The translations under genes and the position numbers were made by a program. The notes under the pieces were generated by a model, which was not told the origin of the DNA, made no database searches, and was given only the letters and a program-made list of their open reading frames with translations. Shown here piece after piece: positions 60,905-63,093 of a stretch of 64,000 bases of DNA. The DNA is from Aestuariispira insulae. Its GTDB lineage: Bacteria > Pseudomonadota > Alphaproteobacteria > UBA8366 > Aestuariispiraceae. The stretch lies in assembly GCF_003385955.1 (NCBI RefSeq), contig NZ_QRDW01000004.1, positions 310,001 through 374,000 on the forward strand, written 5' to 3'. Each line of letters begins with the position of its first letter. The first letter of the stretch is position 1.

Positions 60905-61210
60905 TCTCTTCTACCTGTCTTCTCTGAACAGGTCCTACGATTATTCCGACCGTCCAGTTCCATTGATTGCCTGCCTGATTGACGTCAGCGAGCGGAAAGT
61001 GTCAAGCACCCGACATCTTCCGGCCAGCCGAGACTATATAGGGATTTCCCGCCATCACCACCACCCCTACAGCATTGTGATCATTCGGGTTGACGCCCCA
61101 GGCAATGTTGCCGTGATGTTCTTACATATTTGAAGACTGCTGACAACGTTATGTCAGCACATCATATATGTTTCGTCGTCCGGGCCGGAACCGAATGCCG
61201 TTCAAGATTG
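60905..61210. other. 306-base region between uvrA and the second orphan binding protein
   Basis: Upstream of minus-strand uvrA and downstream of a minus-strand binding-protein gene. An imperfect CCTGT…ACAGG inverted repeat occurs at about 60910–60930 with spacing wrong for a LexA box. No gene, tRNA or clear terminator is visible. Confidence 0.5.
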
Positions 61211-61966
61211 TTAATCCAGACCAAAGAATTTTTTCTGATGAAAGATCTCTGACCAAAATCTGTCGGCCAATTCCCTGTTTTTCTTATAAAATACACGATT
61301 GAACACAACGTAATCGTTTCGGGTCCAAACGGGCAGATTCGACTTTCGGAGATTGCGCAAGTTGAGTATGTCCACTTGCGAGTCGGTCGGCAGCTCCAGA
61401 TTGATAAATGAGCCTATTTGTCGGCTTTCCAGCAGTTGCAGGCCGTCCCGCGGTGCATCAACAAAAACAAACCGATCTATTCCTTTTTTGCGCAAAGCAT
61501 TCTCTATCCCATATCCGCGGATGACGGAGATCAAAATGTTACGCCGGGTGTAGTAGTGTTTTCCAATCCGGGAACTGTTGGGGAAAATCGTATATTCGTA
61601 GTAGGACTTTCGGGAGATTCGATAACGTTCATCCGGATCGCCGGACCCGCCGGGATAGACACCAAATCGTTCCCGCTGTTTCAGATAGGGCGAAGAGAGT
61701 AGGGCATCAATGTCACCTCTGCGAAACCATCGCAGGCATTGTATCCACGGCATGCGACGAAAAGAAATGTCTATGCCTTCGCTTTCAGCGATGATTTTCA
61801 CCAGCGATATATACAGTCCCGGATTCCGTCTTGGTACTTCCGCTCCCTCTCCAAAATAATAGGGCGGCTGAGCAATCGATTCATAACAGAATGTTATTTT
61901 TCCCTGACCAAGGGATGGCAGGGGAAAGAAGCTGAACAGCACAAAGATCGTGATCCAATTTTTGAT
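61211..61966 (-). CDS. Orphan periplasmic solute-binding protein, family 3-like, probable AUC start
   Basis: A family 3-type exported binding protein, 251 residues from 61966. The signal peptide is complete only if translation starts at an ATC codon (61966): M/I-K-N-W-I-T followed by a hydrophobic stretch ending SLGQG. AGGAG lies exactly 7 bases before this ATC, and a stop codon in frame (TAA, three codons before it) excludes any upstream start. The first standard start is GTG 61942, which removes the positively charged n-region. The mature part begins ITFCYESIAQPPYYFG. No transporter partners are adjacent. Confidence 0.72.
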   Translation of the reverse strand: MKNWITIFVLFSFFPLPSLGQGKITFCYESIAQPPYYFGEGAEVPRRNPGLYISLVKIIAESEGIDISFRRMPWIQCLRWFRRGDIDALLSSPYLKQRERFGVYPGGSGDPDERYRISRKSYYEYTIFPNSSRIGKHYYTRRNILISVIRGYGIENALRKKGIDRFVFVDAPRDGLQLLESRQIGSFINLELPTDSQVDILNLRNLRKSNLPVWTRNDYVVFNRVFYKKNRELADRFWSEIFHQKKFFGLD

Positions 61967-62310
61967 CGCTTAACTCCTGTGGCAATCGGCGGTATCGGCC
62001 CAGTCATTTCCAAGTATCCATCCAGAATGTTGACGAACACTTAATCTCCAAAAGGGCTGCAGGCACCCGCTCACCCACCACTGCGCAAAGGAATTACAAG
62101 ATCACACCGGAAACAGGAATGTTATTCCCGTTTCCGCATAAGATAGCTCAGCAAATTTCCTAATATGTTTTAAGCTTGAAATATTTTTCCGGCTCGCCCA
62201 GACTGTCTTGGCGTCGCATAAGACACAACTGCTGGCAAACACAGGGAGGACCAGCTATAAGCGACGCTTGGGAATAATAAAAACTAGCAACTGAAGCGAG
62301 GGCGAGGGCT
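61967..62310. other. 344-base divergent intergenic region before the liv-type operon
   Basis: Contains the ribosome site of the minus-strand binding protein (61974–61978) and presumably divergent promoters for it and for livG. I could not identify confident hexamers, hairpins or open frames of note. Confidence 0.5.
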
Positions 62311-63093
62311 TTGATTTCAATCCAATCCCTGTCGAAATCCTTCGGGGGTGTCAAAGCTGTGAATGGATGCAGCTTTGATATTGAACAAGGAACGATAACG
62401 GGCCTGATCGGTCCGAACGGTGCCGGCAAGACCACACTGTTCAACATGATCGCGGGAGCATTCGCCCCGACATCCGGCAAAATTATCTATCAGGGCCAGG
62501 ATGTAACGGGGCTTCGGGCAGATCAGCTGTTTCACAAGGGGATCGTCAGGACATTCCAGATTCCCCATGAATTTGAACGCATGACTGCGCTTGAGAATCT
62601 AATGATGGTGCCGCCGGGCCAGAATGGGGAAAACCTGTTCCGGACCTGGTTCAGCTGGGCGGGCGTGCGCAATCAGGAACGGGAGGTTCGCAAAAAGGGC
62701 GAAGAAGTTCTTGAATTTCTGCAATTGACCCACATCCGGGATGAACTGGCCGGCAACCTCTCCGGAGGCCAGAAAAAGCTGTTGGAGCTGGGCCGCACCA
62801 TGATGACAGAAGCCAAAGTCGTCCTGTTGGATGAACCGGGAGCCGGCGTGAACAGGACGCTTCTGGCCAAGCTTGCGGAGATGATAAAACAGCTTCGCGA
62901 TGAACGCGGTTATACCTTCGCCCTGATCGAACATGACATGGACCTGATCGCACATCTTTGCGATCCGGTTGTCTGCATGGCCCAGGGCGCGGTTCTCTGT
63001 CAGGGCGATTTTGAGAGCGTCCGTTCCAATGAAGAAGTGCTGGAAGCCTATCTTGGCTCTTCGGCCCATCAGGAGACGGAGGGCAAAGCCTGA
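62311..63093 (+). CDS. livG: Branched-chain amino-acid-type ABC ATPase (LivG)
   Basis: A 260-residue ATPase. Walker A is GPNGAGKT (about 34–41), the signature LSGGQKKLLELGRTMM and Walker B VVLLDEPGAGVN. The C-terminal AYLG motif is typical of LivG. It begins with TTG after GAGGGC; the next gene starts inside its stop (TGATG overlap). Substrates of this family include branched-chain amino acids, amides, urea and aromatic acids, and the binding protein that would tell is outside the window. Confidence 0.92.
   Translation: MISIQSLSKSFGGVKAVNGCSFDIEQGTITGLIGPNGAGKTTLFNMIAGAFAPTSGKIIYQGQDVTGLRADQLFHKGIVRTFQIPHEFERMTALENLMMVPPGQNGENLFRTWFSWAGVRNQEREVRKKGEEVLEFLQLTHIRDELAGNLSGGQKKLLELGRTMMTEAKVVLLDEPGAGVNRTLLAKLAEMIKQLRDERGYTFALIEHDMDLIAHLCDPVVCMAQGAVLCQGDFESVRSNEEVLEAYLGSSAHQETEGKA

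Follow-up and report, generated by a model that had tools for sequence, protein, structure and literature searches.

Among described systems, the closest to the start codon considered here is that of infC, the gene of initiation factor IF3, which is autoregulated from an AUU, AUC or AUA (AUH) start standing behind a strong Shine-Dalgarno (SD) sequence. Starts at AUC, AUU and AUA are stated in general terms to occur in rare instances (PMC9094748, available text). In Streptomyces, infC begins at ATC and the stress-regulator gene sigR at a GTC that is repressed by IF3 (PMC5472188, available text). For Staphylococcus aureus, the accessible part of one report describes AUA and AUU starts giving about 10% of the expression obtained with AUG, with ccpN reaching up to 30% in rich medium, and an AUA start of citZ that occurs in strains of one lineage (PMC13009471). 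A lacZ fusion of Bacillus subtilis with its start mutated to AUC showed much lower yet measurable expression (PMC10303841, available text). As far as the accessible text of a survey of 36 genome triplets goes, two of 61,358 ancestral AUG starts had changed to CUG and one to AUU, with none listed as changed to AUC (PMC5622118); switches from AUG to an AUH-type start between close genomes are extremely rare. The available portion of PMC11497404 contains nothing on AUC or AUU, and in the start-codon literature searched, as far as it was listed and accessible, infC was the sole bacterial gene with a naturally occurring AUC start.

The present study concerns a 64,000-nucleotide stretch of the Aestuariispira insulae genome (contig NZ_QRDW01000004.1, positions 310,001 to 374,000; hereafter the window), in which the gene (61211-61966, minus strand) of a predicted secreted, SBP_bac_3-like periplasmic binding protein of type II appears to start at ATC. 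Comparable in this respect is Escherichia coli pcnB, a non-infC gene with an inefficient non-standard AUU start, which limits a dosage-sensitive enzyme, unlike the gene of the window. With infC the locus shares an AUH codon behind a strong SD. With S. aureus citZ it shares the start class, an apparent restriction to a lineage and the ordinary nature of the gene, citZ expression being lowered by its AUA; the citZ, cvfC1 and ccpN starts (AUU/AUA) were mapped by ribosome profiling and reporters, whereas that of the window is read from the sequence, and the cvfC1 and ccpN starts are conserved, unlike the window's AUC (PMC13009471, available text). The sigR GTC is likewise a non-standard start outside infC, but it serves a stress regulator, whereas the window's gene encodes a binding protein without evidence of regulation (PMC5472188, available text); by analogy, IF3-dependent repression of the window's AUC would be expected. 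The start would be a further case of the known AUU/AUC/AUA starts, with no new mechanism.

Anatomy of the start region

On the minus strand, AGGAG (61978-61974) is followed by the 7-nt spacer TTAAGCG and then by the ATC at 61966-61964. The codons directly 5' of the ATC are TAA-GCG, so that an in-frame stop (61972-61970) closes the frame two codons upstream. From the ATC the codons read ATC AAA AAT TGG ATC ACG ATC TTT GTG, the last being GTG 61942 (61942-61940), which is residue 9 and the first ATG, GTG or TTG in frame; the second standard codon, also a GTG, lies 47 codons further on, within the domain. The 251 codons from the ATC to the stop at 61213-61211 contain no internal stop or frameshift and would give a product of 251 aa. 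The initial annotation had given the same arrangement, AGGAG 7 bases before the ATC and an in-frame TAA upstream, and its coordinates are correct in the minus-strand reading. A run of five A (61963-61959) directly follows the ATC, and an overlapping open reading frame (62040-61894, minus strand) enters the start region in a different frame.

AGGAG at 7 nt is a good SD at proper spacing, an arrangement with a chance level of about 1% per codon. Across 355 gene frames sampled from 464 kb of this genome (400 kb of contig C1 plus the window), 1.2% of the non-standard codons (243 of 19,683) and 6 of 633 ATC codons had an SD of at least 5 bases standing 5-9 nt ahead. Since the ten-codon lead contains three ATCs, the combination of SD and ATC would be met by chance in about 3% of cases, and the SD evidence for ATC 61966 is moderate. 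As sufficient proof the combination was rejected, given that AGGAG and ATC also precede an apparently ordinary ATG start, judged by eye, elsewhere (L054:10317).

The initial annotation had dismissed GTG 61942 both for its lack of a ribosome-binding site at a sensible distance and for the loss of charged residues. The former argument was abandoned as proof: an SD of 4 bases or more at 4-12 nt is missing from 39 of 77 starts classed as unambiguous by script, and GTG 61942 is therefore not excluded by the lack of one. The latter argument stands, in that a start at this GTG would cost the signal peptide its basic n-region and half its hydrophobic core; its position within the core of the predicted signal peptide is the main case against it.

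The start region at the ATC has a mean unpaired value of 0.285 and is more paired than 90% of 60 SD-ATG starts of the genome (10th percentile 0.34), the corresponding values being 0.31 for random in-gene sites and 0.43 for the surroundings of GTG 61942; its fold is no more stable than that of shuffled sequence (z 0.72). A promoter scan returned two sites against 2.0 expected by chance, and a promoter is therefore without support. At least four A in the six bases after the start are found here and at 6 of the 60 SD-ATG starts, which renders the A-rich bases after the ATC uninformative.

Start codons in homologous frames

The homologs compared are distant relatives only, at about 20-31% identity. 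Of 34 frames listed, one (L012, E 1.2e-12) was dropped by the E limit of 1e-12, leaving 33 that include the window's own. A standard start codon (ATG, GTG or TTG) lies at most 25 codons before the signal-peptide core in 32 of these, the window's gene being the exception, and in 31/33 a Lys or Arg stands between the standard codon and the core. Because a 25-codon criterion can be satisfied by chance in long frames, a 12-codon limit with a chance level was added: under it ATG occurred in 25/33 frames against 7.2 expected from codon frequencies, and any standard start in 30/33 against 16.7 expected. The frames lacking one were the window's gene, L028 and L041, the ATGs of the latter two lying 14-15 and 19 codons before the core, respectively. 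The window's gene thus has no standard start codon where the protein requires one, and none of the other homologs among the 33 frames needs a non-standard start.

With a standard start preceding the core in 32 of the 33 frames, ATC 61966 is very probably the start position. In the closest homolog (31% identity, genome G001), L005:1501 aligns with query residue 5, so that ATC 61966 falls on the ATG of that gene (L005:1489). The starts of the four other rows of the five-frame alignment A1 were chosen by the analyst, and its first column is therefore not independent evidence. The initial proposal of ATC 61966 as the best start position is borne out by SD, signal peptide and homology together. It had also named relatives with ATG at this place as a sign of base error or of a decayed start; such relatives exist, at the distance of about 20-31% identity to which the comparison extends. 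Conservation of the AUC among relatives was not found, which is not a strict requirement, as the case of citZ illustrates, and the start change looks confined to the lineage of the window on the frames compared.

AUH starts of infC in the same order

Across the family and order of the window's genome, 31 infC loci were examined, of which three (L089, L092 and L094) were unreadable; nine further matches without a locus were left out. The start was ATA in 26 of the 28 readable loci and ATC, at the same place, in the remaining two (L072 and L075). In the window's own genome (L064), homology and SD place the infC start at an ATA behind AAGGAGG, and the first 50 codons of the frame contain no ATG, GTG or TTG. 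One locus (L080) carries an additional ATG in frame, 11 codons ahead of the ATA; in five (L072, L074, L076, L085 and L093) an ATG or GTG follows the ATA or ATC by 4-8 codons. The infC SD in the order (L064, L065-L094) is of the GAGGA/GAGGAT type.

Because ATA/ATC is conserved in infC, AUH-class starts, AUC included, very probably function in this order, as judged from the sequences compared. Whereas infC keeps its codon class across the order, the window's AUC is found in a single gene of a single genome and has no connection with the function of IF3. The conserved AUA/AUC start of infC would escape gene finders restricted to ATG, GTG and TTG. To our knowledge, the common gene finders propose these three codons only, so that a gene with an AUH start would be assigned an internal GTG as its start or be taken for truncated.

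The encoded protein

By model and profile, the product is a divergent, presumably exported type II periplasmic binding protein. Its match to PF00497 (SBP_bac_3) scores 16.6 bits, below the curated cut-off of 26.4, and it is accordingly left outside that Pfam family. A profile of five homologs (A1) matches amino-acid binding proteins of the PDB (AncQR, E 2.6e-6). The AlphaFold model has a mean pLDDT of 76.9, and a Foldseek search with it retrieved sensor domains as well as periplasmic binding proteins of type II, the best match being 3h7m (E 6.3e-13), with TM scores by query length of 0.41-0.65 among the 50 matches listed, many of which are amino-acid binding proteins. Model and profile A1 both place the protein in the two-lobed type II periplasmic fold.

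A likely Sec signal peptide, MKNWITIFVLFSFFPLPSLGQGK..., is encoded at 61966-61898 (minus strand), with Met assumed at the ATC and the extent taken by eye. It is complete only from ATC 61966, with Lys2 and a hydrophobic core from about residue 5. The model has a helix at residues 2-12, fitting a signal peptide with Lys2, and its first domain strand from residue 23.

Within the class, 18 of 385 genomes carry a relative at E <= 1e-15. NCBIfam returned no family for the protein, and plasmid records gave 12 distant matches, all below 60% identity (best 28.7% among the 10 matches listed). A protein search of genome contigs, which may omit the window's own genome or very near ones, found no relative. 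A scan of the window's genome with RF00177 returned no 16S gene.

Composition, divergence and genomic context

The binding-protein gene departs from its genome in composition: GC1 is 0.506 where the genome averages 0.622 (sd 0.041), GC3 is 0.518 where it averages 0.633 (sd 0.052), and a GC3 as low as this was found in 2.0% of 355 sampled frames. The frame is the best-scoring of the six at its site by codon usage, and a gene finder based on codon usage rejected it (score 7.9, threshold 15). Among 22 family members, defined as frames with E below 1e-30, its leave-one-out profile score of 149.4 bits is the lowest, next to 149.6 for L007, and 6 of its 21 conserved positions are changed, compared with 0 to 8 in the other members. 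In A1, its C-terminus stops 6-12 alignment columns before those of the four remaining rows.

The interval between uvrA and livG (60905-62310) is variable. It holds the binding-protein gene in the window and different genes in two other genomes: an EndoU-domain protein (PF14436, 57.8 bits) with an apparent signal peptide by eye in G001, and a histidine kinase with a molybdopterin-oxidoreductase-domain protein in Hwanghaeella grinnelliae (G003; livG at position 1,576,818), the nearest named relative, which NCBI assigns to the family Aestuariispiraceae. As this position is not conserved, the binding-protein gene looks acquired or moved in the lineage. Its composition and profile score point to relaxed constraint or to a foreign origin. 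Taken together, the odd composition, low profile score, short C-terminus, non-conserved position and structured start make decay or low expression quite possible.

Interpretation of the AUC start

The reading we favour, at a probability of roughly one half, is that the start of an otherwise intact gene changed to AUC in this lineage and that initiation there is weak and limited by IF3. The ancestral start would have been a standard codon; after its change the initiator tRNA would still pair with AUC through the first two bases, with AGGAG assisting, and the binding protein would be produced at a reduced, IF3-limited level and exported. Support comes from the codon itself, the SD at its 7-nt distance, the stop upstream, the signal peptide that is complete only from the ATC, the starts of the homologs, the intact frame and modelled fold, and the ATA start of infC in the same genome; against it stand the rarity of AUG to AUC switches, the paired start region, the signs of relaxed constraint and the lack of a promoter above chance. 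If the AUC works, the locus offers a clean case of an ordinary gene surviving a change of start codon and a warning that annotation can lose exported proteins; if it does not, an ordinary step of gene loss is seen.

That second outcome, a start-loss pseudogene in the making, is on balance unlikely yet deserves to be taken seriously. The gene would be dispensable and lineage-specific, its product too scarce to matter and its intact frame a relic, for which the deviating GC1 and GC3, the rejection by the codon-usage gene finder, the lowest profile score of the family with its changed conserved positions and early C-terminal end, the replacement by other genes in G001 and G003 and the structured start region all speak. 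Foreign origin accounts equally well for the composition, however, and 251 codons have remained without stop or frameshift, with SD, signal-peptide sequence and modelled fold intact. An error of one base in sequencing or assembly, the organism having a standard start codon at 61966, appears improbable. The ATC is one base away from a standard start, homologs have standard starts and the record is an assembly of 49 contigs; on the other side, the genome is 99.4% complete with 0.21% contamination, the adjacent uvrA, livG-type and livF-type frames are open over their full length, and consensus errors are rare in modern short-read assemblies. It was kept as a rival, the comparison extending to relatives at about 20-31% identity.

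A selected, working AUC that makes synthesis of the exported binding protein depend on growth state or on the amount of IF3, an infC-type start having been recruited in this lineage, seems slightly more doubtful than such an error. The initial annotation had called starts of the AUC/AUU class usually regulatory; this found no support here, since the AUC is not conserved and no homolog found needs a non-standard start, and the argument from rarity to regulation was rejected on the same lack of conservation. No sign of selection for low expression of the gene was found. Given the odd composition and the non-conserved site, regulation is no likelier than a lineage-specific start mutation that leads to weak expression or decay, and a regulatory role of the AUC is possible but unsupported.

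The two readings that move the start away from 61966 fare worse. Initiation further upstream in a different frame, at ATG 62007 or GTG 62040, with the frames joined by frameshifting or by a miscount in the A-run, is very improbable: the overlapping open reading frame does enter the start region and the five A could allow slippage or miscounting, but the n-region would then reach some 15 residues or more and exceed that of the closest homologs (L005, L006 and L016), AGGAG at its 7-nt spacing would be purposeless, and by eye no clear SD precedes ATG 62007. Hardest of all to credit is GTG 61942 as the true start, which would leave the protein 243 aa long and its hydrophobic N-terminus very short. 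This codon is the first standard start of the frame, lies in less structured surroundings than the ATC and lacks an SD as about half of the starts classed as unambiguous do; against this weigh the loss of basic n-region and half-core, and the other 32 homologous frames, all of which start before the core with a standard codon.

Other features of the interval

A palindrome, TGACATAACGTTGTCA, lies at 61141-61156 between the binding-protein gene and uvrA, and TGACATAACGCTGTCA is found upstream of uvrA in G001. The pattern built from these two sites has one match in the window against 0.03 expected, one mismatch being allowed, and the palindrome is possibly a candidate operator of uvrA. Ahead of the livG-type operon, TTTTAAGCTTGAAA at 62168-62181 has a counterpart, TTTTAAGCTTAAAA, at a like place in G001; the pattern derived from this pair occurs once in the window, with 0.08 matches expected, and may mark a candidate operator of the transporter operon. 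The livG-type ATPase gene itself (62311-63093) apparently begins with TTG 62311, which by eye is preceded by GAGGG at a distance of about 8 nt, and its homolog in H. grinnelliae is likewise listed from a TTG (L124:3519).
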